This document shows, in pieces, positions 121 to 11,537 of a stretch of DNA of 64,000 nucleotides. The DNA is from Myxococcales bacterium (lineage in GTDB: Bacteria > Myxococcota > Polyangia > Nannocystales > Nannocystaceae): positions 62,001 through 126,000 of the forward strand of contig JAEUJW010000010.1 in the NCBI GenBank assembly GCA_016793465.1, read 5' to 3'. The translations under genes and the position numbers were made by a program. Below the pieces are notes generated by a model. The model had not been told where the DNA came from. It saw only the letters and a program-made list of their open reading frames with translations, and made no database searches. How positions within the stretch are numbered: position 1 is the stretch's first letter; every line of letters begins with the position of its first letter.

Positions 121-876
121 TCACTTGGCCTCCTCCGCCTTCTTGGCCGGCGCAGCCTTCTTCTCGACCTTGGTGTCAGCGGCCTTGGGCTCCTCGGCCG
201 CCTTGGCCGCCGCTTCTTCGGGCGTCGGCGGGGCCTCTTTCTGGACCGTCGAGGTGTTCTCCTCGAGCACCCGCTCCTTGCCGGTCTTCGGGTCGATCTC
301 GACCTTCTTCTGGGTCACGTCCTGCTCGGTGACCAGGAACTCGACGCGGCGGTTCTTCTCCTTGCCCTCCTCCGTCGACTCGTCGGCGATGAGGCGGGTC
401 GGGCCGTAGCCCTTGGCGGTGAACATCTCCTTCGGCAGGCCGCCCTTGGTCACGAAGTAGTCCATGACCGCCTTGGCGCGCTGGTCGGACAGCTTCATGT
501 TGTGCCTGGCCGAGCCCTCGGACGACGTGTGGCCCTCGATGGCCAGCTTCTTCACGTGCGGGTTCTGCTTGATGACGGTGATGATCTCCTGCATCAGGCT
601 GTCCGACTCCGGCTTGATGGTCGCCTTGTCGAAGTCGAACTGGATCTTCTCCGCGATCGTGATCTTGTTGTCCTTCAGCTCGACGCGCGGCGGCGGCTCG
701 GGCTCCTTCACGGGCTCGGGCGGCGGCGGCGGCGGCTTGGGCAGGGGCGGCGGGTCGCCGACGATCTGCAGCGCCGTCGCGTCGTCGAACACGGTCGGTC
801 CGCACGCCGCGAGGAGCGCGGCGGACAGGACGATCAGCCTCGACGAGGCGAGGCGGGTTGTACGAGCAAATGACAT
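121..876 (-). CDS. OmpA-family peptidoglycan-associated lipoprotein
   Basis: 251 aa. A lipoprotein signal ends at LLAAC (Cys25), followed by a proline-rich linker (about 41-65), an OmpA C-terminal domain (about 70-185) and a Lys/Ala/Glu-rich tail to the end. The domain shows the start FDFDKATIKPES, the peptidoglycan-binding loop EGHTSSEGSARHN, the arginine helix LSDQRAKAVMDYF and the end NRRVEFLV. By family it should tether the outer membrane to peptidoglycan, as Pal does. One oddity: the loop Asp that contacts diaminopimelate in most members (GHTD) is Ser here. A strong Shine-Dalgarno (GGAGGAG, six bases before the ATG) supports the start. The downstream lipoprotein gene follows after 2 bases. 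Confidence 0.9.
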   Translation of the reverse strand: MSFARTTRLASSRLIVLSAALLAACGPTVFDDATALQIVGDPPPLPKPPPPPPEPVKEPEPPPRVELKDNKITIAEKIQFDFDKATIKPESDSLMQEIITVIKQNPHVKKLAIEGHTSSEGSARHNMKLSDQRAKAVMDYFVTKGGLPKEMFTAKGYGPTRLIADESTEEGKEKNRRVEFLVTEQDVTQKKVEIDPKTGKERVLEENTSTVQKEAPPTPEEAAAKAAEEPKAADTKVEKKAAPAKKAEEAK

Positions 877-1016: not shown

Positions 1017-1952
1017 TCATGTCACGGCAATGACGGGCAGTCGCCGCGGCCGCACTGTCGGCGCTTGCCCCCGTGCCGTCGCGATCTCCTCGTCGCCGTA
1101 CACCTCGAGGTAGTCCGGGCGCACCCCCGGGCAGACCTGCTCAAAAGGACAGCCGGCGCACGCCGGCACGTGCACCCGCCCGGCCAGGCGACTGTCGCGG
1201 AGCTCGAAGCTCGCCTCGGGCGTCACCACCCGCACCCGCTGCGCGCCCGGGTCGTACGCGTGCACGTGGTCCTCGCCGAGCAGGCAGCGCGGCACGTGCA
1301 ACGAACGCAGGGTCATCCCGCGGGCGCGCGCGGACGCAAACGCCTCGGCCATGATCGGCGCCGCCGCGGTCATGCGCGGCAGCGAGGCCGCGTTGCCGCG
1401 GTTGCCGTCGGTCAGGGACACGAACCACAGGTCGGCCGCCCGCACCCCGCGGTCCCACAGCCAGGCGATCGCCGCCGGCAGGCGCGGCAGCGTGTCGGCC
1501 TTGACGATGACGTCGGCCACCACCGCGGCCCCGCTCGCGACCACCGCGTCGAGGCCCGCGACCATGCGCGCGTGGCTGCCCGGGCTGCGGACCAGCGCGT
1601 CGTAGGCCGCGGCAACGTGGGTGTGGATCGACACGTGCACGCGATCGACGCCCGCGTCCCGCAGGCGGCGCGCGTTGTCTGCCTGCCCGAGCATCAGTCC
1701 GTTCGACTGCACCTTCACGTCGCTGAAGCCGAGCGCGCGAGCGGCCCGCACCAGCCCCAGCAGATCTCCGCGGATCGTCGGCTCCCCGCCCGTGAAGGCC
1801 ACCCGGTCGTAGGCCGCCGCCCGCCCGGCGCGCATGGCCGCGACCACCTGCGCGGCGGTCAGCGAGCGCCGCCGCATCTCCGGCGTGATCGTGCAGTAGT
1901 CGCAGGCGAGGTTGCAGTCGTAGCCGAGGATCACGTCGAGCAGCCCGCTCAT
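1017..1952 (-). CDS. radical SAM enzyme of a putative peptide-modification operon
   Basis: 311 aa. The [4Fe-4S]/SAM triad CxxxCxxC is at Cys13, Cys17 and Cys20 (GYDCNLACDYC), and the SAM-binding GGEP is at 55-58. The C-terminus carries a short SPASM-like cluster (CAGCPFEQVCPG, about 265-276). This is a complete radical SAM enzyme that should cleave SAM to a 5'-deoxyadenosyl radical. Substrate is unknown. Its ATG overlaps the stop of the HExxH gene (ATGA at 1952-1949), so it is the last gene of a tightly coupled four-gene minus-strand operon. The cluster type and the HExxH neighbour suggest a modified peptide or protein as substrate. A role in a small-molecule pathway is not excluded. Confidence 0.88.
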   Translation of the reverse strand: MSGLLDVILGYDCNLACDYCTITPEMRRRSLTAAQVVAAMRAGRAAAYDRVAFTGGEPTIRGDLLGLVRAARALGFSDVKVQSNGLMLGQADNARRLRDAGVDRVHVSIHTHVAAAYDALVRSPGSHARMVAGLDAVVASGAAVVADVIVKADTLPRLPAAIAWLWDRGVRAADLWFVSLTDGNRGNAASLPRMTAAAPIMAEAFASARARGMTLRSLHVPRCLLGEDHVHAYDPGAQRVRVVTPEASFELRDSRLAGRVHVPACAGCPFEQVCPGVRPDYLEVYGDEEIATARGQAPTVRPRRLPVIAVT

Positions 1953-3127
1953 GCGACCCCCGCGAAGCCGCGCTCGAGCGCGTCGATCTCCGCCAGCACG
2001 CCCGCGCCGAGGTTCGTCGGCCGCGCGTGCGCCCGCAGGACCTCGACCCCCTGACGGTTGCCCGCCACGATGGCCGCGTAGCGCTGCCGGAAGCGGGGGT
2101 CCGCCGCGCGCGGATCCCCGGCCGCGAGCATCTCCATGTACATGCGGGCCACCGGCAGGAACGCGTGCACCGCAAGCAGCACCCCGTGCAGCGGCCGCGG
2201 GTCGGGCCGCACCGGCGAGGCGTACAGCGGCGAGTAGGCGTTCTCCAGCACCGCGTCGAGCTCGAGCAGCAGGTTGATCTTGTTGTGCTGGAACTCGTGC
2301 ACGAGCGCCTCGGCCAGCGTCATCGGGTCGGGGTGCAGCGACAGGTACACCGTCCCGATCGCCTCCTGGTACGACGCCGACAGGTGGCGCTCCGCGTCGT
2401 AGCCGACCGGCACCACCTGCTGCAGCACCACCGCCATCTCCGCCCGGATGCCCGGCAGCCAGCGCTCGACCAGCGCCAGCGCCTCGCGCAGCGCCGCGGC
2501 CCAGGCCTCCGGCGCGCGCCCGCCGAGGTCGACCGCGTTGCCCTGCTTGTCCGGGTGGGCCTCGACGTGCGCGAGCGGGTTGTTGTCGATCGGCGCGAGC
2601 ACCAGCCCGTCGGCGATCACCACCGGCCGGTCGTGCGGGTCCGCCTCGAACTCCGCGAGCGCGCGCGTCCCCTGCTCGCCCTCGTGCACCACCCCCGCGC
2701 CGCACACCAGCGCGCCCGTCGGCAGGCGCCAGCTCGTGCGCGCCCCGAGCCCGACGATCCGCGGCGGCGCCGGCACCCGCAGCGGGGACCCCAGCGCCCC
2801 GGCCAGGGCCAGCTCGACCGCCAGCGTCGCCACCAGCTCGTCGAGCACCGCCGCGGTCCGCCCCGGGAAGCGCGCGACCCGGATCAGCGCCCCGACCGTC
2901 GGCCGCCGCAGCGCGCTCCACACCGCCCCGGGCGCCGCGGCCATCGCCTCGCGCACGGCCGCCAGCAGCCCCGCGTAGGCCGCCCGCGCCGCCGGCGAGG
3001 CCCCGCGCACGTCGAGCCGCCCGAGGTCGGTCAGCAGCCGCCGCAGCCCGCGCGACAGCAGGTCGCGCACCGTGCCCGAGCCCTCGCGCGGGAGCGTCAG
3101 GTCCAGGACGGCGACCGGCGGCGCCAT
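1949..3127 (-). CDS. HExxH-motif protein, likely 2-oxoglutarate-type peptide hydroxylase family
   Basis: 392 aa. The metal-binding signature HEFQH is at residues 277-281 within LAEALVHEFQHNKIN, in a mostly alpha-helical, Ala/Leu-rich protein. The layout resembles the HExxH proteins found beside radical SAM enzymes in RiPP loci, which are now described as 2-oxoglutarate/HExxH peptide beta-hydroxylases. The assignment rests on motif and context, not alignment, and a metallopeptidase is the alternative. The ATG at 3127 overlaps the previous stop (TGATG), which rules out the much longer in-frame extension upstream. The stop overlaps the next ATG. No signal peptide is visible, so it should act in the cytoplasm with the radical SAM enzyme. 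Confidence 0.75.
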   Translation of the reverse strand: MAPPVAVLDLTLPREGSGTVRDLLSRGLRRLLTDLGRLDVRGASPAARAAYAGLLAAVREAMAAAPGAVWSALRRPTVGALIRVARFPGRTAAVLDELVATLAVELALAGALGSPLRVPAPPRIVGLGARTSWRLPTGALVCGAGVVHEGEQGTRALAEFEADPHDRPVVIADGLVLAPIDNNPLAHVEAHPDKQGNAVDLGGRAPEAWAAALREALALVERWLPGIRAEMAVVLQQVVPVGYDAERHLSASYQEAIGTVYLSLHPDPMTLAEALVHEFQHNKINLLLELDAVLENAYSPLYASPVRPDPRPLHGVLLAVHAFLPVARMYMEMLAAGDPRAADPRFRQRYAAIVAGNRQGVEVLRAHARPTNLGAGVLAEIDALERGFAGVA

Positions 3128-3750
3128 CACCCGGCCCCGGCCCCCGCCGGCTCGCCCCCCGCGCCCCGCCACGTCAGCGCCCCTGTCCCCGCGAACATGT
3201 CCCCCGCGCCAGCCCGACCTGTCCTCGCGGCCACGTCCCGCAGCGCCCGCGGCGACAGCTCGTCGGCCCCGAAGCGCGCGAGGTAGCCCGCCGCGACCCC
3301 CGGACACCGCGCGCGCGCCGGGCACCCGCCGCACACCGGCGCGTACGCCCGCGGCGCCCCGCGCCCGGCCCCGCGGAACGGCCCGAGCAGGCAGTGCGGC
3401 GCCCCCTCGATCGTCCCGCCCGCCCGCGCGAGCGCCTGCAGCGCGTACGGCACGGCCATCGCCAGCCGCGGCGTCACTCCGTCGACCGCCGCGCCCGCGG
3501 CCACCACCACGCGCCACGGCAGGCCCGCCAGCCACGCCGGCATGCCCGCCAGCGTCCGCAGGTTCGAGCGCGTCAGCAGCGTCGACACCGCCCGCAGCTC
3601 GCCGCGCGCCCGTCGCTCGGCGATCGCCGCGAAGTCGCCGGCGTCCCCGGCCACGAAGTCATGCGCCGCCGCCGACGGCGCGTGCACCCACGCGTGTCCG
3701 GGCGCCGCGCCGGCGTCGAGCCCGAGCCCCGCGCGCCCGCACAGCGTCAC
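3127..3750 (-). CDS. half radical-SAM protein lacking the CxxxCxxC domain
   Basis: 207 aa, GTG start overlapping the upstream stop (GTGA at 3750-3747), stop overlapping the next ATG. The C-terminus has the same SPASM-like cluster as the neighbouring radical SAM enzyme (VCGGCPARARCPGVAAGYL, here after PHCLLGPF; there after PRCLLGED). The region before it (HAPSAAAHDF...STLLTRSNLRTL) lines up by eye with the second half of the barrel in both local radical SAM proteins. The first half, with CxxxCxxC and GGEP, is absent and there is no room for it upstream. It therefore cannot be a standard radical SAM catalyst and is more likely a substrate-binding or dimerising partner. The exact overlaps on both sides argue against a decaying pseudogene. 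Confidence 0.7.
   Translation of the reverse strand: MTLCGRAGLGLDAGAAPGHAWVHAPSAAAHDFVAGDAGDFAAIAERRARGELRAVSTLLTRSNLRTLAGMPAWLAGLPWRVVVAAGAAVDGVTPRLAMAVPYALQALARAGGTIEGAPHCLLGPFRGAGRGAPRAYAPVCGGCPARARCPGVAAGYLARFGADELSPRALRDVAARTGRAGAGDMFAGTGALTWRGAGGEPAGAGAG
3182..3240. repeat. two decayed copies of the dispersed palindromic element
   Basis: Two CCTGTCC boxes (3182-3188 and 3218-3224) are each followed after three bases by a degenerate right half (CGAACATGTCC and CGGCCACGTCC). They lie inside the 3' end of the half radical-SAM gene, where they are read on the other strand as the poorly conserved tail GDMFAGTG. Assigned by similarity to the better copies elsewhere in the window. Confidence 0.4.
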
Positions 3751-4265
3751 AGCGCCAGTACGCCCGCGCGGGCCGCCCGCTCGCGCCAGCCGAGCAGCCC
3801 CGGCCCGTCCGCGTCGCGCTCGGCCAGCCACGCGGCCAGCGCCCGCGCCGCGTGGGCCTGGGCCTCGTCGGTCGGCGTGCGGCCGTCGCCCTTGTTGGCG
3901 ATATACAGCCCGAGCCGCCCGGTCTCCGCCACCGCCGCCGGCCCCTCGGGGTCGCGGCGCAGGACGTCGACCTGGAAGCGGACCCCGGCCGGCGTGCGCA
4001 TCACCACGGGCACCGCGCCGGCCGTGAGCGGCAAGACCGCCTCGACGACCCCGCGGCCGATCGACGCGCCCGCCGCAAGTCCGTGCCCGAGCAACGAAAA
4101 TTCGCCGTCCGCGGGCACCTCGAGGCGGGCGCGCGGGGCCGGTCCGCCGCGCTTGGCGGCCTGCCTGGCCGCCGCCTGGCCGGGCACCAACCCGCCCGCG
4201 CCCGCGGTCAGGGCCGCCACGAGGACCTTGCGTCGACCCAACTCTCTGCGCGAAACCTGTGTCAT
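3747..4265 (-). CDS. Tat-signal-like exported protein, first gene of the modification operon
   Basis: 172 aa. The N-terminus MTQVSRRELGRRKVLVAAL contains two Arg-Arg pairs followed by a hydrophobic stretch, so a twin-arginine signal is likely. There is no lipobox Cys. The mature part has no motif I recognise; it contains short beta-like segments and a helical end (AHAARALAAWLAERD). A good Shine-Dalgarno (GGGAG, five bases before the ATG) supports the start, whose last base pair lies inside the ATG of the divergent gene. As the first gene of an operon with two radical SAM-type proteins and a HExxH protein, and the only exported product, it is the best local candidate for the modified substrate. 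That is inference. Confidence 0.6.
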   Translation of the reverse strand: MTQVSRRELGRRKVLVAALTAGAGGLVPGQAAARQAAKRGGPAPRARLEVPADGEFSLLGHGLAAGASIGRGVVEAVLPLTAGAVPVVMRTPAGVRFQVDVLRRDPEGPAAVAETGRLGLYIANKGDGRTPTDEAQAHAARALAAWLAERDADGPGLLGWRERAARAGVLAL

Positions 4266-6141
4266 GCCTGCTCCCAGCCGAGCACCAGGCTACCCGGGCG
4301 CGCGGCGGGCCGTCAAGGCGCTCATCAAGGTGGGCTACGGCTGCAACGAGCACTGCACCTTCTGTCATACGCTCGACGTCCGCGAGATCCAGGGCAGCGC
4401 CGCCGAGGTCGAGGCCAAGATCCGCCGCGCCGCCGAGCTCACGCGCATGGCGGGCGTGCGCGACGCTCCGCCCATGGTGGTGCTGTCCGGCGGCGAGCCG
4501 ACCATCCGCCCCGAGCTCGTGCGCTGGGCGGAGCTGGTCGCCAGCCTCGACATGGACCTCGGCCTCGTCACCAACGGCCGCATGCTCGCCTACCCCGAGC
4601 TCGTCGACCGCCTGTGCGCGCTGCGCCTGAAGTACGTCTACCTCTCGCTGCACGGCGGCAGCGCCCGCGTCCACAACCTCATGGTCCGCAGCCACGCGTT
4701 CGACGAGGCGCTGGCCGCCCTGCACAACCTGAGGGACCGCGAGCTCGACCTCCACGTCCACTGCGTCGTCACCCGCCACAACCTCGCCCACCTGCGCGGC
4801 CTCGTCGACGCCACGCTCCCGTTCACCCGCGCGACCGTCAAGTTCTCGATGGTCGAGCCCAAGGGCGGCGGCGACCGGCTGTTCGACCACCTCATGCCGC
4901 GCGTCGCCGACGTCGCGGCCGCCGTCGACGCCGCGATCGCCCACGGCGAGGCGCACGCCCGCGGCGGCGGCCCGAGCTTCGAACACGGCGCGATCCCGCT
5001 GTGCCTGGTGCCCGGCCGCGAGCGCCAGTACGGCGACCTGAAGACCCACCGCTACCACACGATGATCGAGGTCGGCGAGCCCGACTACTTCCCCGTCGAC
5101 GACCGCAACAAGGTCCACCCGCCCGCGTGCACCGGCTGCGCCCTGCGCGGCCCCTGCCCCGGCCTCTACCGCGGCTACCACGCCCGCCACGGCGAGGGCG
5201 AGCTGCGCCCGGTCCGCGGCCCGCGCGCCAACTCCTTCAACTACACGCTCGTCGGCCTCGTGCAGGGCGCCGGCGACCTGTCCTCCGGGACATGTCCGCT
5301 GCGCGACGGCCCGCTCGGCGTGACCCCGTGGGACCGCGGCCGCGACCTGTTCGTGCGCCACGACGGCAAGCTGGCCCGCTACCGCGCCGACACCCGCGAC
5401 TTCGACGACGACGAGATCGCCGCCGTCAAGCACGCGCGCGGCCAGGTCTACCTCGACGCCAGCCGCAAGCCCGCGCCCGACGACTTCGCCCGCGACCTCG
5501 TGCCCCTCGCCCGCGCCGCCGTGTGCCGCGGCTGCCCGCACCACGGCGCCTGCACGGGCCTGCACGAACCTGTCTTCGAGGACATCTTCAGCCGCGACGA
5601 CGCCGCCGTGCGCGAGCACCTCGCCGGCCTGCGCGGCGACCTGCTCGACCTCGGCTGCGGCGAGGCCCCCTACCTCGACGCGCTCGCCCCCGCCGTCGCC
5701 GCCGGCGACCTGCGCTACACCGGCGTCGACCCCGACGCCGCCCGCCTGGAGCAGCTGCGCGCCCGCCTGCCCGCGGCCGCCCTGCACACCGCCGTCCCCG
5801 CCGACACGCGCTTCGACCACCTGACGATCCTGCGCAGCTGGAACCACCTGCCCGACCCCGCCGCCGAGCTCGCGGCCCTGCTGCCGCGCCTGCGCCCCGG
5901 CGGCAGCCTCGTGATCGTCGACAACCTCGCGTTCGGCCTGGCCCGCACCCCGGCCCAGACCCGCCGCGGCGAGACCGGCGGCGCCGGCTGGGAGCACCAC
6001 CGCCTCGACGGCCCCGACGAGGCCGAGGCCGCGGTCGACGCCGTCGCCGCGCGCCTCGCCGTCCCGCTCGCCCGCGCGGACCGCCGCGACATCGCGCCCG
6101 GCACCAGCAACCAGTGGCTGCTCCGCTGGCGCCGCGCCTGA
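4264..6141 (+). CDS. radical SAM / double Cys-cluster / methyltransferase fusion protein
   Basis: 625 aa with three parts. Residues 20-220 are a radical SAM domain: CxxxCxxC at Cys27/31/34 (GYGCNEHCTFC) and GGEP at 76-79. Residues 285-435 hold two auxiliary clusters, CTGCALRGPCPG (Cys289/292/298) and CRGCPHHGACTG (Cys421/424/430). From about 459 a class I SAM methyltransferase follows (DLLDLGCGEAPYL, then YTGVDPDA). The protein would use SAM both as radical source and as methyl donor, or the C-domain may bind substrate. The ATG at 4264 shares two bases with the ATG of the divergent operon. There is no clear Shine-Dalgarno. The FAD gene follows after 25 bases and is probably co-transcribed. 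A dispersed repeat lies in frame at 5277-5297. Confidence 0.85.
   Translation: MPAPSRAPGYPGARRAVKALIKVGYGCNEHCTFCHTLDVREIQGSAAEVEAKIRRAAELTRMAGVRDAPPMVVLSGGEPTIRPELVRWAELVASLDMDLGLVTNGRMLAYPELVDRLCALRLKYVYLSLHGGSARVHNLMVRSHAFDEALAALHNLRDRELDLHVHCVVTRHNLAHLRGLVDATLPFTRATVKFSMVEPKGGGDRLFDHLMPRVADVAAAVDAAIAHGEAHARGGGPSFEHGAIPLCLVPGRERQYGDLKTHRYHTMIEVGEPDYFPVDDRNKVHPPACTGCALRGPCPGLYRGYHARHGEGELRPVRGPRANSFNYTLVGLVQGAGDLSSGTCPLRDGPLGVTPWDRGRDLFVRHDGKLARYRADTRDFDDDEIAAVKHARGQVYLDASRKPAPDDFARDLVPLARAAVCRGCPHHGACTGLHEPVFEDIFSRDDAAVREHLAGLRGDLLDLGCGEAPYLDALAPAVAAGDLRYTGVDPDAARLEQLRARLPAAALHTAVPADTRFDHLTILRSWNHLPDPAAELAALLPRLRPGGSLVIVDNLAFGLARTPAQTRRGETGGAGWEHHRLDGPDEAEAAVDAVAARLAVPLARADRRDIAPGTSNQWLLRWRRA
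5277..5298. repeat. dispersed palindromic element, in-frame copy
   Basis: CCTGTCC, three bases, then GGGACATGTCC. It lies inside the radical SAM fusion gene and is translated as LSSGTCP, between the two Cys clusters. It matches the intergenic copy at 35361-35381 except for the spacer. Other copies or relics are at 3182-3240, 35361-35386, 39052-39079 and 63440-63456. Confidence 0.6.
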
Positions 6142-6166
6142 GGCTACGATCCGCCGACCGCCCCGC

Positions 6167-7543
6167 ATGTCCACCGCCCCGCCCGCGCCCGAAGGTCGTC
6201 AGGTCGTGATCATCGGCGGCGGCGTGTCCGGCGTGGCCCTCACCATCCACATGCTCACGCTCGGCGCGGCCCGCGTCGCCATCGTCGAGCGCCGCGAGGG
6301 CCTCGGCCGCGGCCCGGCCTACGGCACCTCGGACCCCGCGCTGCGCCTCAACGTGCCCGGCGCCCGCATGAGCCTGTTCCCCGAGCGCCCCGGCGACTTC
6401 CTCGAGTGGGCCCGCGCGCACGCCGACTGGAGCGCCGACGAGTTCCTCCCGCGGCGGCTGTTCGGCGCCTACGTCGAGGCCCGCCTCGCCGACGCCGCGC
6501 GCGCCGCCCCCGGCCGGCTGGCGTTCTTCCGCAGCGAGGCCGTCGACGCCGACACCCGCCGCGTCACGCTCGCCGACGGCACCGCGCTCGCGTGCGACGC
6601 CGTCGTGCTGGCCACCGGCAACCAGCTGCCCGCCGCCCCCGCCGCCTTCGACGCCGCGCTGCTGGCCTCGCCGCGCGTCGTCGGCGATCCGTGGGCCGAC
6701 GGCGCGCTGTCCCGCGTCGCCGCCGACGAGTCGGTGCTGCTGATCGGCACCGGCCTCACCGCCGTCGACGTGCTGCTCGCGCTGCACAACCACGGCCACC
6801 GCGGCCAGCTCGTCGCCGTCTCGCGCCACGGCCTGCTGCCGCGCCCGCACCTGCCGGCCGACGACCCGGGCCGCCGCCCGTTCACCCTCGCCGGCGAGCT
6901 CCCGCGCGACGTCGTCGGCCTGTGCCGCCGCCTGCGCGCCGAGGTCCGCCGCGCCGCCGCCGACGGCGTCGCCTGGCAGTCGGTGATCGACGCCCTGCGC
7001 CCGCACACCACCAGCGTCTGGCGCTCGCTGCCGCTGTCCGAGCGGCGCCGCTTCATGACCGCCGTGCGGCCCTACTGGGAGGTCCTGCGCCACCGCGCCG
7101 CCCCCGATCTGCTGGCCCGCATCGCCGCCTGGCGCCGCGACGGCCGGCTCGAGATCCTCGCCGCCAGCGTCGCCGCCGCACGCGAGCAGGACGGCGTGCT
7201 CGTCGACCTGCGCCCGCGCCGCGGCCCCGCGCAGCGCCGCCGCTTCGATCGCGTGGTGCTGTGCACCGGGCCGCAGACCGACGTGCGCCGCTGGCCCGGC
7301 GAGCTCTACCGCCGCCTGCTCGCCGCCGGCGAGCTCGTCGGCGACCCGCTCGGCCTCGGCGTCGTCACCGACGAGTCCGGCCGCGTGCAGGACGCCGCCG
7401 GCCGCCCCTCGTCGTGGTTGTTCGCCCTCGGCGCCCTGCGCCGCCCGCACCTGTGGGAGACCACCGCCGTGCCCGACATCGTGCGCCACGCGCTCGCCCT
7501 GGCCCGCCTGCTGACGACGCGCGAATGCGACGATTTGTATTGA
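6167..7543 (+). CDS. FAD/NAD(P)-binding oxidoreductase (NAD_binding_9-type)
   Basis: 458 aa. An N-terminal Rossmann FAD site is seen in VVIIGGGVSGVALTIHML (GGGVSG at 17-22), followed by ERREGLGRGPAYGTSD, typical of the family whose members resemble the HcnB/YdhS group. A second dinucleotide site is LLIGTGLTAVDVLLAL (about 190). An ATG-type motif, VVLCTGPQTD, closes the FAD fold near the C-terminus. It is cytoplasmic, with no signal or membrane segment. It follows the radical SAM-methyltransferase gene by 25 bases, so it may supply electrons to the iron-sulfur enzymes or oxidise the product. The reaction is not known. Its stop codon sits within the -35 box of the next promoter. Confidence 0.85.
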   Translation: MSTAPPAPEGRQVVIIGGGVSGVALTIHMLTLGAARVAIVERREGLGRGPAYGTSDPALRLNVPGARMSLFPERPGDFLEWARAHADWSADEFLPRRLFGAYVEARLADAARAAPGRLAFFRSEAVDADTRRVTLADGTALACDAVVLATGNQLPAAPAAFDAALLASPRVVGDPWADGALSRVAADESVLLIGTGLTAVDVLLALHNHGHRGQLVAVSRHGLLPRPHLPADDPGRRPFTLAGELPRDVVGLCRRLRAEVRRAAADGVAWQSVIDALRPHTTSVWRSLPLSERRRFMTAVRPYWEVLRHRAAPDLLARIAAWRRDGRLEILAASVAAAREQDGVLVDLRPRRGPAQRRRFDRVVLCTGPQTDVRRWPGELYRRLLAAGELVGDPLGLGVVTDESGRVQDAAGRPSSWLFALGALRRPHLWETTAVPDIVRHALALARLLTTRECDDLY

Positions 7544-7569
7544 CCCCGCGCCGCGCCCCCGGTTAGGGT
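7540..7569 (+). promoter_or_regulatory. sigma70-like promoter of the cobalamin operon
   Basis: TTGACC (7540-7545), an 18-base spacer and TAGGGT (7564-7569). Six bases further on is the first base of the riboswitch P1 stem, the expected transcription start. The -35 box overlaps the stop codon of the upstream FAD gene. Confidence 0.65.
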
Positions 7570-7575
7570 GGCCCC

Positions 7576-7761
7576 GGCGCTGGTACTGCCTGCATGTGCA
7601 AACATGCACGCGGTTCAAAAGGGAACCCGGTGAGACTCCGGGGCTGCCCCGCAGCGGTAAGCGAGAACGAACCCCACGCGACACTGACCTCGGTCGGGAA
7701 GTCAGGGTAGTAGGACCGGCACGACGCCGGACGCTCGTGAGCCCGAAGACCTGCCCGCGCC
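7576..7761 (+). promoter_or_regulatory. cobalamin (B12) riboswitch
   Basis: This leader matches the btuB-type cobalamin aptamer closely. It has AAAGGGAACCCGGTGAGACT followed by CCGGGGC, then CCCCGCAGCGGTAAGCG, CACTG, TCGGTCGGGAAGTCA and the closing AGCCCGAAGACCTGCC. P1 can pair GGCGC (7576-7580) with GCGCC (7757-7761). The family binds adenosyl- or methylcobalamin and usually lowers expression of uptake or synthesis genes when B12 is plentiful. Here it precedes three coupled lipoprotein genes. Confidence 0.95.
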
Positions 7762-8103
7762 GGGCGACGGGAGACATCCGTCGCCGACTCGACCTGGAAG
7801 CCTCGCGGGAGGCTCGGCGGACGCGAGCACGCGACACGTGTGAGCCTCTCCTCCCCCTCCCGCACGGCGACCGGTCGCCCGCGGGGGCGAGAGGTCGGAG
7901 CAGGACGCCGCCCCGCGCTCCCTCATCCGACGCCCCGCCCCGCGCGAACCGCGAGACGACGGAGGCGAGATGACGAGCGACACCACGGACCGACGAGCGA
8001 ACCGCAGGCCTCACCCGAGCCCTGCGCCGCCGCGTCGGCCGCGCGTCGTCTCGCCCGCCGATCGGCGCTCGCGGCGGCCTCCGCACGCATCAAGGATCGA
8101 TCC
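7762..8103 (+). other. long leader between riboswitch and first gene; candidate expression platform
   Basis: 342 bases without a convincing gene. A 7-bp hairpin (GCGACGG 7764-7770 with CCGTCGC 7778-7784) follows the aptamer directly. A second pairing (GAGGCTC 7809-7815 with GAGCCTC 7842-7848) ends in a pyrimidine run and could act as a terminator or antiterminator. A frame open from 7840 is Arg/Pro-rich and looks like GC-driven noise. AAGGA at 8092-8096 is the ribosome binding site for the gene at 8104. Confidence 0.5.
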
Positions 8104-8640
8104 ATGACCCTCCCGAGCAAGCTCCTCCCCGCCGCCCTCCTCCTCACCCTGACCGCCTGCGAGTCCGGCGCCGGCACCACCGACGACACCGACACCGCCG
8201 CCTCCACCTCGAGCGGCGACGACACCGGCGCCCCGACCACCGGCGACGCGCCGACCGGCGAGACCGGCGAGGCCACCACCGGCGAGGCCACCACCGGCGC
8301 CGCCGTCGACGAGCCCGCGATCGCCGGCAGCTACACCGACGAGTACGGCTCGATGCACACCATCGACGCCGCGGCCTGGACCATCGACGCCGCGATCTTC
8401 CACCTCGTCGCCGTCGACAACGAGGCCGTCCACCTGGTCGCCCGCAACGACGCCGCCAACATGTACAACCCCGACCTCTACTCGCGCTTCGACTGGCACG
8501 TCGACGGCGACGCCATCTTCTACTGCCAGTCCGCCTTCGACGCCGCCGACGCCGACGCCGCCGAGGCGACCCCCGCGGCCGACGGCGCCGACATGGCGAC
8601 CGGCTGCGGCGGCTTCCCCTGGACCCGCCTCAATCCGTGA
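8104..8640 (+). CDS. lipoprotein, first gene of the B12-riboswitch operon
   Basis: 178 aa. The lipobox is LLTLTAC (Cys19), followed by a Thr/Gly/Asp/Glu linker to about 70 and a compact domain: SYTDEYGSMHTID, SRFDWHVDGDAIFYCQSAFD, TGCGGFPWTRLNP. Two Cys in the domain (YCQ and GCGG) could form a disulfide. I do not know a named family. AAGGA seven bases before the ATG supports the start. It is the first gene after the cobalamin riboswitch and its stop overlaps the next start (GTGA), so it should be made when B12 is scarce. A role in cobalamin or corrinoid capture at the cell surface is inferred from context. Confidence 0.8.
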   Translation: MTLPSKLLPAALLLTLTACESGAGTTDDTDTAASTSSGDDTGAPTTGDAPTGETGEATTGEATTGAAVDEPAIAGSYTDEYGSMHTIDAAAWTIDAAIFHLVAVDNEAVHLVARNDAANMYNPDLYSRFDWHVDGDAIFYCQSAFDAADADAAEATPAADGADMATGCGGFPWTRLNP

Positions 8641-9863
8641 TCCGCATGCGCCGCCGCCTGCCGCTGCTCGGCCTCGCCGCGCTCGCCTGCGACCCGCAGG
8701 CCTCGCCGCCTCGCGACGTCGCCCCGTGCGAGGCTCCGCCCGCGCTCGCCGGGCCGCCGGCGCTCTCGGGCCCGTGCGTCGGCGACGTCGCCGAGCCCAC
8801 GCGCCTGGTGGTGACGACCACCGACTTCGCGACCGGCGCGGTCGGCCTCGTCGACCTGCGCACCGGCGAGGTCACGCCCGACCTCGCGCTCGCCAGCACC
8901 GACGCCAAGCCCTACGTCCACGGCGACCGCGTGTTCGTGCTGCAGCGCTACATGTTCGACGCCCTCGACATCCTCGACGCCGACGACCGGCTCGCCCTGC
9001 TCGGTCAGGTCGGCCTCGTCGTCGACGACGTCCCGAGCACCAACCCCCACGCGGTCGCGCTCGGCCCCGACGGCCGCGCCTACGTCAGCCTGTTCGGCGC
9101 GCCCGGGCTGCAGGTGCTCGACATCGCCGATCCGGCGGCGATCCGCGGCGAGGACCCGATCGACCTGTGCCCGGTCGCCGACGCCGACGGCACGCCCGAG
9201 GCCTCGCTCCTGATCCGCTGCGGCGACACCCTGTTCGTCAGCATCGAGCGCCTCGACCGCGACCGCGGCTTCGCCCTCACCGAGGACCACGACGCACTCG
9301 CCGCCGTCGACCTCGCCAGCGGCCGCCTCCACGACTTCGACCCCGACGCCGACGGCGTGCAGTCGCTGCCGCTGCTCGGCCCGTGGGCCAAGCAGTGGCG
9401 CCTCGATCCGCGGGCCGCCGACGGCCGCGCGATCTACGTGCTCTCGAGCGGCCTCGAGCGCGTCGACCTCGCCGCCGGCGCCAGCGCGTGGGCCGTCGAC
9501 CCCGCGGCGCTGGCCGCCCTCGGCCTGGACGACTACCGCCTGCCGCAGGCCTTCGACCTCGACCGCGACGGCCGCGTCGCCTACCTCGCCGCCTACACCG
9601 CCGACTACGCCGAGGTCCTGCTGCTGCGCGCCGACCTCGAGGCCGACGCTTCCGAGGATAAAATTGAAATTTTCGCCGAGGGTCTGCAGTCCGTCGAGCA
9701 GACCCTCGAGGTCGCCGGCGACACCCTGTGGTTCGGCGATCGCAGCCACGCGGCCGCCGGCCTGCGCGCGTGGGACATCTCCGTCGATCCGCCGACCCCT
9801 CGCTTCGCCGGCGAGCCGCTCGCCACCGGCCTCCCGCCCTACGCCCTGGTCGCCATCCCATGA
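8637..9863 (+). CDS. beta-propeller lipoprotein, BtuG-like candidate
   Basis: 408 aa from the GTG at 8637. An ATG at 8646 is an equally good start. The lipobox is LAALAC (Cys18). The rest is a repeated blade pattern typical of YncE/surface-layer propellers: LVVTTTDFATGAVGLVDLRT, PYVHGDRVFVLQR, NPHAVALGPDGRAYVSLFG, DTLWFGDRS. Bacteroides use a propeller lipoprotein, BtuG, to capture B12 on the surface. Here a propeller lipoprotein sits under a cobalamin riboswitch, so an analogous role is likely but unproved. It is coupled to both neighbours (GTGA before, ATGA after). No TonB receptor is visible in the window. Confidence 0.8.
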   Translation: MIRMRRRLPLLGLAALACDPQASPPRDVAPCEAPPALAGPPALSGPCVGDVAEPTRLVVTTTDFATGAVGLVDLRTGEVTPDLALASTDAKPYVHGDRVFVLQRYMFDALDILDADDRLALLGQVGLVVDDVPSTNPHAVALGPDGRAYVSLFGAPGLQVLDIADPAAIRGEDPIDLCPVADADGTPEASLLIRCGDTLFVSIERLDRDRGFALTEDHDALAAVDLASGRLHDFDPDADGVQSLPLLGPWAKQWRLDPRAADGRAIYVLSSGLERVDLAAGASAWAVDPAALAALGLDDYRLPQAFDLDRDGRVAYLAAYTADYAEVLLLRADLEADASEDKIEIFAEGLQSVEQTLEVAGDTLWFGDRSHAAAGLRAWDISVDPPTPRFAGEPLATGLPPYALVAIP

Positions 9864-10603
9864 AGCACGCGCTCACCCTGTCCTTCGCCCTGCTCTCGGC
9901 CTGCGCCGTCGCCGACGAGGCCGACGAGTCCGCCGGCAGCAGCGAGACCGGCGACACCGCGACCACCGGCGAGCCCGCCGTCGTCGACGACCTCGACCGC
10001 AGCCCCGTCGCGCACGTGTGCGCGCCCGGCGAGGCCGCGAGCGACGCGTTCGCCGACTGCGTCGAGTCGTTCCGCCCCGGCGACGCCAGCTTCGGCCACG
10101 ACATGCTGCCCGACGTCGTGCTCGGCCCCCCGCGCGGCGGCGGCAAGGCCAGCGGCGGCCTCGACGTCGCCTCGCTCGGCTGCGACGGCGTCATCACCCT
10201 CCACTTCGACGATCCGGCGCTCGTCGACGGCCCCGGCCCCGACCTCATCGTGTTCGAGAACGCCTTCGACAGCGGCTCGTCGAACTTCATCGAGCCCGCG
10301 CGCGTGCTCGTCAGCGCCGACGGCGTCGACTGGCGCGCCTTCCCCTGCGACCCCGCGCAGGCCGTCCCGCGCGGCTGCGCCGGCCTCACGCCGGTGCTCT
10401 CGTCGCCCGCCAACGGCGTCGACCCGACCGACCCCGCCGTCGCCGGCGGCGACGCCTTCGACCTCGCCGACGTCGGCCTCACGCGGGCCCGCTACGTCCG
10501 CATCGTCGACGTCGGCCTCGCGCACTTCGGCCAGGACACCTGGTGCGGCGGCGCCGGCGGCGGCTTCGACCTCGACGCCGTCGCCGCCGTCCCGCGCGGC
10601 TGA
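9860..10603 (+). CDS. cell-surface lipoprotein, third gene of the B12-riboswitch operon
   Basis: 247 aa. The lipobox is ALLSAC (Cys15). After a short acidic/Thr linker comes a beta-rich domain with GCDGVITLHFDDPALVDG, PGPDLIVFENAFDSG, EPARVLVSADGVDWRAFPCD, AGGDAFDLADVGL, ARYVRIVDVG and GGFDLDAVAAV. I recognise this as a recurring cell-surface protein family often found beside corrinoid-uptake genes; the ENAF and FDLDAV blocks are its hallmarks. The ATG overlaps the previous stop (ATGA). Co-regulation by the riboswitch suggests cobalamin binding or handover. A general carbohydrate-binding-like surface role is the alternative. Confidence 0.78.
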   Translation: MKHALTLSFALLSACAVADEADESAGSSETGDTATTGEPAVVDDLDRSPVAHVCAPGEAASDAFADCVESFRPGDASFGHDMLPDVVLGPPRGGGKASGGLDVASLGCDGVITLHFDDPALVDGPGPDLIVFENAFDSGSSNFIEPARVLVSADGVDWRAFPCDPAQAVPRGCAGLTPVLSSPANGVDPTDPAVAGGDAFDLADVGLTRARYVRIVDVGLAHFGQDTWCGGAGGGFDLDAVAAVPRG

Positions 10604-10739
10604 CGGCGCGACTGACGGCGAGCGACGCGGGCGCGAGCGCGCGAGCGCACGCGTTCGAGCCGGCCCATGCCGACGAACGCTCGCGGTGTAGGGCCCGGAC
10701 GTCGGCCGGCGTTGGGGAGTGGCATCATCGCCAGGGGTC

Positions 10740-11537
10740 ATGACTTCCATGCCAGCTCGCACCGCCTCCGTCCTCGCCCTCCTGCTGGCCGCCTGCGCCG
10801 CGTGGGAGACCACCACGCCGTCGACCGCGCCGCCGCCCGCCGAGAGCCCGAAGCCCTCGCACTACGCCCCGCCGCCGGACGATCCGCCGGCCGAGCCCCA
10901 GCCCGAGGTCGAGCCCGAGCCGCAGCCCGAGCCGCAGCCCGAGCCGACCTCCTCGCCGATCGTCACCTCGCCGGTGACCCGGCTGCAGGTCGCGATCGCC
11001 TCGGTGCAGCTGCTCGACGACTGCCCCGACCCCGCGCCCGCGCCGCAGAGCGCCCCGGCGCCGGCCGCCGCGGGCAAGGCGATCCCCGCCGCTGCGAGCG
11101 AGATGGCCTCGGAGCACTCGTCGATGCAGAAGCGGCCGGGCGGCGACTACCGCCGCATGTGCTCGCAGTCGACGGTGCAGCTGTCGGTCCAGGCCGACGG
11201 CGTGCAGCCGTTCAAGATCGAGGCGGTGCGTGTGCTCGCGGCCAGCGGCAAGAAGGTCGTCGGCGCCACCCGGCTGCGCGCGCCGACCACCTGGGACGAC
11301 GCGAGCGGGACCTACGGCGCGTGGCAGGAGCACACGGCCGCGGGCAAGGCCCTGAACGTCAGCTACAAGATGAGCGACCTCGAGCTCGACGACGCCGCCG
11401 ACAAGCTGAGCGGCGACAAGTTCAACACCTTCAGCGGCCCGTTCGTGCTCGAGCTCGTGGTCTCGGCCGGCGGCAAGCGCAAGACCGTGCGCTCGCCCGA
11501 GTTCACGCGCGAGCCGCCGCACGTGATGGTGACCTGA
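10740..11537 (+). CDS. lipoprotein of unknown function with Pro-Glu linker
   Basis: 265 aa. The lipobox is LLLAAC (Cys19). A Pro/Glu linker (EPEPQPEPQPEP, about 50-72) is followed by a soluble domain that begins VTRLQVAIASVQLLDDCPD and ends in KRKTVRSPEFTREPPHVMVT. The beta-strand pattern after about 140 (STVQLSVQADGVQPFKIEAVRVL) suggests an Ig-like or C2-like fold. AGGGG lies just upstream of the ATG at 10740; the ATG at 10749 and one farther upstream are alternatives. It is separated from the B12 operon by 136 bases, so operon membership is doubtful. Confidence 0.7.
   Translation: MTSMPARTASVLALLLAACAAWETTTPSTAPPPAESPKPSHYAPPPDDPPAEPQPEVEPEPQPEPQPEPTSSPIVTSPVTRLQVAIASVQLLDDCPDPAPAPQSAPAPAAAGKAIPAAASEMASEHSSMQKRPGGDYRRMCSQSTVQLSVQADGVQPFKIEAVRVLAASGKKVVGATRLRAPTTWDDASGTYGAWQEHTAAGKALNVSYKMSDLELDDAADKLSGDKFNTFSGPFVLELVVSAGGKRKTVRSPEFTREPPHVMVT

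Follow-up and report, generated by a model that had tools for sequence, protein, structure and literature searches.

What do the enzymes encoded between positions 1017 and 7543 of a 64-kb stretch of myxobacterial DNA (contig JAEUJW010000010.1; hereafter the window) act upon? The genes encode radical S-adenosylmethionine (SAM) enzymes, a HExxH protein and a protein with a twin-arginine translocation (Tat) motif, and a sequence-only reading had taken them for a pathway that modifies an exported protein, with the Tat protein in place of a short precursor peptide. Here we present evidence that five of them, termed A to E, are likely to be accessory genes of a myxobacterial His-Xaa-Ser (Hxs) system of the HxsA4 type, a system for ribosomally synthesized and post-translationally modified peptides (RiPPs), with the chemistry proposed below. 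In relatives, the families of A to E co-occur and cluster with HxsB, HxsD, HxsC4 and precursors that have (HGS)n-W at the C-terminus. HxsA4, and not the Tat protein D, is probably the precursor, because relatives of A to E co-occur with HxsB and sit near HxsA, HxsB, HxsD and (HGS)n-W precursors. The genes are as follows.

A, 1017–1952, minus strand: HxsC4-like radical SAM enzyme of 311 residues with a C-terminal auxiliary Cys cluster
B, 1949–3127, minus strand: peptide beta-hydroxylase of the alpha-ketoglutarate (aKG)-HExxH type (HEFQH), 392 residues
C, 3127–3750, minus strand: headless radical SAM protein of 207 residues, GTG start
D, 3747–4265, minus strand: protein of 172 residues with an N-terminal twin-arginine motif and a folded beta-rich domain, without a curated family
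E, 4264–6141, plus strand: fusion of a radical SAM domain, two further Cys clusters and a class-I methyltransferase, 625 residues
Overlapping divergent start codons of D and E, 4263–4266: from reading the sequence
F, 6167–7543, plus strand: oxidoreductase of 458 residues binding flavin adenine dinucleotide (FAD) and NAD(P) (PF13454)

Re-reading of positions and start codons confirmed all six open frames, four overlapping on the minus strand and two on the plus strand, as first described. D, C, B and A are coupled through overlapping stop/start junctions (GTGA, TGATG and ATGA), and the ATG codons of D and E share 2 nt, an arrangement also seen in the closest relative (L172). The order E / D-C-B-A is kept in six contiguous relatives (L173–L178) from the G365 family, in which A and E are 65–67% identical to their counterparts here; because these six share the order, the A-B-C-D/E block goes beyond chance, and the conservation of gene order anticipated for related genomes was found. 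In one of them (L178), the HExxH gene B is split over two frames at about position 6668, by a frameshift or a sequencing error. A to E are thus conserved together, but the sixth member of the proposed set is not: F (PF13454, 122.7 bits, cut-off 21.8), separated from E by a gap of 25 bp, was without homologues in all fetched regions other than the window itself. The island is therefore five genes, and F is a neighbour only, judged to lie outside the system.

Association with the His-Xaa-Ser system

Haft and Basu, to whom PMC9062424 refers, put forward the His-Xaa-Ser motif together with HxsB and HxsC as the putative enzymes that mature His-Xaa-Ser peptides. The literature searched, to which subscription papers mostly did not belong, yielded no chemistry or characterised product of any Hxs system, and no paper joining Myxococc-, radical SAM and His-Xaa-Ser.

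Homologues of D number 60 in the protein collection, and D was present in 11 of 13 genomes searched, with an E homologue adjoining it in 10 of the 11. A scan with B gave 14 loci, of which 9 bear the title Myxococcales and 2 the titles Elusimicrobia and Planctomycetota; the other three (L003, L004 and L006) belong to the same order as L009. L004 is labelled Klebsiella pneumoniae, yet its genome (G004) shares the order of a Myxococcales assembly, and the label is probably wrong. When the search was widened, that order yielded D in 20 of 22 genomes, the class in 25 of 52 and the phylum, taken to be Myxococcota, in 77 of 377 (E-value 1e-10).

Across these 377 genomes, HxsB was present in 126 at an E-value of 1e-40 (125 over the curated cut-off), B in 99 (1e-30) and full-length E in 32 (1e-150); the looser threshold of 1e-20 gave 105 genomes for E, other radical SAM proteins included. 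D and HxsB occurred together in 73 genomes, D alone in 4, HxsB alone in 53 and neither in 247 (Fisher test, 5e-38). The corresponding counts were 96, 3, 30 and 248 for B (2.7e-58), and 32, 0, 94 and 251 for full-length E (3e-17). The G365 family comprises 29 genomes. HxsA4 exceeds its cut-off in 20 of them, and 22 contain E; HxsB occurs in 21 of those 22 and in none of the 7 without E. Among 14 control genomes, HxsB was found in none and HxsA4 in one, with no match over the cut-off.

Physical adjacency provides support independent of these counts, which are uncorrected for kinship: at no fewer than 29 of the 78 D places, HxsB is at most 12 kb away from D. Forty of these places (L082–L121) were picked mainly by score. 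In 26 of the 40, HxsA, HxsB or HxsD lies within 10 kb of D; taken singly, HxsD is near D in 22, HxsA in 19, E and HxsB in 15 each and B in 7; at least one of the five is found in 29 and none in 11. A six-frame scan of the same regions revealed C-terminal (HGS)n-W precursors in 19. For the larger tallies, these 40 were combined with the window and with loci from genomes found with B (L026–L036), loci picked for HxsB near D (L164–L167) and loci picked for a match to E (L172–L181), giving 66 D loci, 14 of which were thus selected for nearness of HxsB or for E. Within 10 kb, 54 of the 66 hold E, B, HxsA, HxsB or HxsD.

Relatives of A to E sit among members of all four Hxs families, over curated cut-offs. 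In D regions of two relatives, HxsB scored 583.9 and 518.8 bits (TIGR03978, cut-off 370) and HxsD 60.2 and 67.3 bits (TIGR03976, cut-off 50). HxsC4 (NF038332, cut-off 500) was matched at 594.9–607.1 bits by four of five proteins, the fifth, at 90.0 bits, being an E orthologue. All five precursors tested matched the HxsA4 model (NF038313) at 67.7–111.8 bits (cut-off 55). The claim that a Tat protein stands in place of a short precursor is not supported, as relatives encode HxsA4 beside the same gene families. The HxsA4 sequences, read by eye with no predictor run, showed no evident signal peptide. Several gene orders recur: HxsA-HxsB-HxsD-E / D-C-B (L083, L086, L087 and L180), the same-strand runs D-radical SAM-MopE-HxsD-HxsB-HxsA (L097, L098, L101 and L104) and D-HxsD-HxsB-HxsA (L164 and L166), and E immediately upstream of HxsD-HxsB-HxsA (L154, L155, L180 and L182–L184). 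The view of the enzymes as a conserved peptide-maturation set is upheld.

A number of observations weigh against the Hxs assignment. The 64-kb window contains no HxsA, HxsB (tblastn, E-value 1e-3), HxsD or MopE-type gene, and no H-x-S repeat in its six frames; the case for Hxs membership of A to E therefore depends on relatives. The scores of A and E are well below the HxsC4 and HxsC cut-offs, and in each of 15 pairs compared the ratio of nonsynonymous to synonymous substitution rates (dN/dS) of C exceeds those of A, B, D and E. The co-occurrence counts ignore kinship, and they include the 53 HxsB genomes without D at the cut-off used as well as the 4 D genomes without HxsB. Twelve of the 66 D loci, some on short contigs, have none of E, B, HxsA, HxsB and HxsD within 10 kb. 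In L026–L036, HxsA, HxsB or HxsD is near D in 0 of 11 loci, with E beside D in 10 of 11, and the flanks of 14 loci fetched with B are free of E, D, HxsB and HxsD.

A to E could instead constitute an independent RiPP pathway with another substrate, such as a MopE-like lipoprotein, the Hxs association then reflecting shared enzyme ancestry. In 28 of the 66 loci a MopE-type lipoprotein is found no further than 10 kb from D, and in L097, L098, L101 and L104 it is on the same strand within the run. Distance also speaks for this reading, since in the six contiguous Nannocystis-like relatives HxsA4 is 59–67 kb from E, on the A side, and the distance from E to HxsB is 410–460 kb in four of them, the other two having HxsB on a different contig. 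All 32 genomes with full-length E, however, also have HxsB, several genomes have HxsD-HxsB-HxsA directly after E, and MopE-type repeats seem, as an impression, so frequent in these genomes that their presence would be weak evidence. We consider such an independent pathway improbable.

The enzymes and the headless protein C

A matches PF04055 at 70.6 bits (cut-off 29.5) with an intact CxxxCxxC motif (CNLACDYC), and its best NCBIfam match is HxsC4, at 96.7 bits, under the cut-off. A orthologues with 55–67% identity share a region with D in L083, L086, L088, L091, L107, L112, L115 and L173–L178. E is similar in these respects (PF04055, 79.7 bits, cut-off 29.5; CNEHCTFC; best match HxsC4, 97.5 bits, again under the cut-off) and matches in addition the methyltransferase family PF13489 (41.6 bits, cut-off 27). 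E looks like a fusion because its C-terminal half (about residues 310–624, comprising the second Cys cluster and the methyltransferase) matches separate open frames of 304–347 residues in five genomes (G094, G136, G146, G255 and G283). B exceeds the cut-off of the aKG-HExxH beta-hydroxylase family (TIGR04267, 106.6 bits, cut-off 40), which includes ChlBH, BpmH and PflC, and keeps the HExxH motif as HEFQH. By its sequence, B is of the alpha-ketoglutarate-dependent peptide beta-hydroxylase type, and its assignment to the RiPP-maturation kind of HExxH protein stands.

C matches no curated family over the cut-off (HxsC4, 14.6 bits). In the window it is without CxxxCxxC and retains the auxiliary motif C..C.....CPG. 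Full-length homologues with CxxxCxxC exist in many relatives; the motif is likewise missing in G391 (L172), in the six Nannocystis-like genomes (L173–L178) and in L088, L091, L093, L107, L112 and L115. Among the database matches listed, the core motif is absent from the first 120 residues in 28 of 57 C homologues, and an auxiliary motif of the C..C....C.G type is present in all 57; 3 of the 28 are still annotated with a radical SAM domain and may have odd starts. Some of the database homologues carry the names Nannocystis and Nannocystaceae. On a tree of C, two state changes are needed, and one change is also possible. C has a dN/dS of 0.31–0.75, compared with 0.10–0.28 for A (six relatives), values that indicate relaxed constraint on C though its reading frame is retained.

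A GGGGACATGTYC-like palindromic motif occurs at four sites of the window (3193–3204, about 5286, about 35370 and about 39052); counted on both strands with at most one mismatch, it has 7 matches against 0.36 expected. Two C homologues (P0062 and P0067) contain low-complexity repeats that may derive from a similar DNA repeat.

The Tat protein D and the neighbourhood of the block

D carries the twin-arginine motif SRRELGRRKVL at its N-terminus and has no match over the cut-off to any curated family. Of 57 database homologues, 39 have two adjacent arginines among their first 30 residues; a very loose pattern, which may also match upstream of the start, finds the motif in all 66 D rows. The AlphaFold model has a mean predicted local distance difference test (pLDDT) score of 76.5, with 91 of 172 residues at 90 or above; it consists of a confident beta-rich domain (about 51–120 and 131–160) and a low-confidence N-terminus, and structure comparison brought out no solved fold that stands out. 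Positions conserved at 80% or more in the 66 rows are G83, A84, G94, N124, G126, G128, T132, L143, A144 and R163, including an N-x-G-x-G stretch (N124 in 61, G126 in 63 and G128 in 65 of 66). In a closer set of 53 sequences, F97, Q98, V99, D100 and D127 are among the additional positions conserved at 90% or more, and N124 reaches the same level. None of the Cys, Ser, Trp, Tyr, Lys or His positions is conserved at 80% or more in the 66 rows. The conservation of F97, D100, N124 and D127 in the closer set leaves room for D as a second substrate.

These features bear on whether D is itself the substrate, with the enzymes modifying its residues before export. In 24 of the 66 loci, D and E are divergent and at most 1.5 kb apart, and in the window D adjoins C; Tat export of a folded, cofactor-bearing protein would suit such a role. 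The conserved N-x-G-x-G stretch and the well-conserved D100 and D127 of the closer set also fit, as Asp is a known HExxH target (PMC12636437). Set against this are the HxsA4 precursors of relatives, the lack of any Cys, Ser, Trp, Tyr, Lys or His at 80% conservation, and the mostly confident fold of D. D as the substrate is therefore unlikely in our estimate; because of its fold confidence and residue conservation, D is more likely a partner than a precursor, and it may still be a target, at D100 or D127 among other sites.

The gene beside A is the following.

OmpA-type lipoprotein, 121–876, minus strand: PF00691, 78.1 bits; directly beside A

An OmpA-type lipoprotein gene is the divergent neighbour of HxsA4 in the six Nannocystis-like relatives, and in all six (L217–L222) it is 72–80% identical to the gene at 121–876. 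In the orientation of the window, the relatives have the order OmpA, HxsA4, a radical SAM gene, about 50–60 kb, A-B-C-D and E. The window has OmpA, A-B-C-D and E, and HxsA4, the adjoining radical SAM gene and the intervening 50–60 kb or so are missing. In the closest relative (G391, E 75% identical), HxsD, HxsB and HxsA4 are together on a contig other than that of E. In the present organism, the precursor and HxsB presumably lie outside the window or were lost.

Loss would make the window a remnant, in which the lineage has shed HxsA4 and its radical SAM neighbour by OmpA and A to E are decaying. The collinearity with six relatives, broken only by the missing stretch between OmpA and A, and the lost catalytic core of C are consistent with this. 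The frames of A, B, D and E are nonetheless intact, their junctions are coupled and their dN/dS is below 0.46 in relatives. Because G391 holds HxsD-HxsB-HxsA4 on another contig, relocation is as likely as loss, and we regard decay of the whole block as doubtful. On the other side of the block, next to F, positions 7543–11537 contain a run of genes for a small lipoprotein, a beta-propeller-like protein and other secreted proteins; no homologues of this run were found in the fetched loci at an E-value of 1e-10.

Proposed chemistry and known systems

Every chemical step that follows is inferred. Enzymes that form three-residue cyclophanes connect an aromatic residue, which may be His, with the beta carbon of the residue two positions further along, and such links from His to Ala/Arg and from Phe to Ser are known (PMC11002830). 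An HExxH enzyme beta-hydroxylates Asp and His and needs a preinstalled cyclophane (PMC12636437). The HGS repeats fit both precedents. HxsB and HxsC4, with the HxsC-like A and E, would cross-link the HGS repeats along their length, plausibly through three-residue cyclophanes from His to Ser. B would then beta-hydroxylate residues of the cross-linked peptide, and the methyltransferase half of E would methylate it. C, minus its SAM-cluster motif, may serve as a non-catalytic enzyme partner, such as a scaffold that binds the peptide or a subunit. D would fold in the cytoplasm and leave by the Tat route as an exported partner of the product.

The likeness to the Hxs system (HxsA4, HxsB, HxsC4 and HxsD) lies in the members of all four families near relatives of A to E and in HxsC4 as the best NCBIfam match of A and E. 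The present set differs in the addition of a HExxH beta-hydroxylase, a radical SAM-methyltransferase fusion, a Tat protein, a headless radical SAM protein and a MopE-type lipoprotein; the window, moreover, is without HxsA, HxsB and HxsD, and its A, C and E fall under the HxsC4 cut-off. Regarding the triceptide enzymes that form three-residue cyclophanes (XncB, MscB, HaaB and YhhB), H-x-S fits their aromatic-x-X motif (PMC11002830). The precursor here, by contrast, is a long tandem HGS array and the enzymes are of the HxsB/HxsC type, and the cross-links are proposed by analogy.

A more elaborate and rather remote idea is a peptide-derived metal centre, in which the modified HGS repeats would be loaded in the cytoplasm onto folded D and carried through the Tat route to a MopE-like surface lipoprotein, C being the docking subunit that passes the peptide from the enzymes to D. 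Copper in MopE is bound by two His and one kynurenine (PMC3423442), and one lipoprotein next to D (L104) carries repeats of PF11617, the family of the MopE/CorA copper-binding proteins. The family matched one of two such neighbours (L104 and not L083), and it has no homologue in the window.

On the favoured assignment to the Hxs system, the HExxH hydroxylase, found in 96 of 126 HxsB genomes, together with the radical SAM-methyltransferase fusion and the exported partner, leads to specific expectations for the product: a cross-link, then +16, then +14. C, retained by many relatives minus the SAM-cluster motif, makes a good case of a RiPP-maturation pseudo-enzyme. A to E would thus provide a defined gene set to express, and a concrete chemistry, for the largely unstudied Hxs system.

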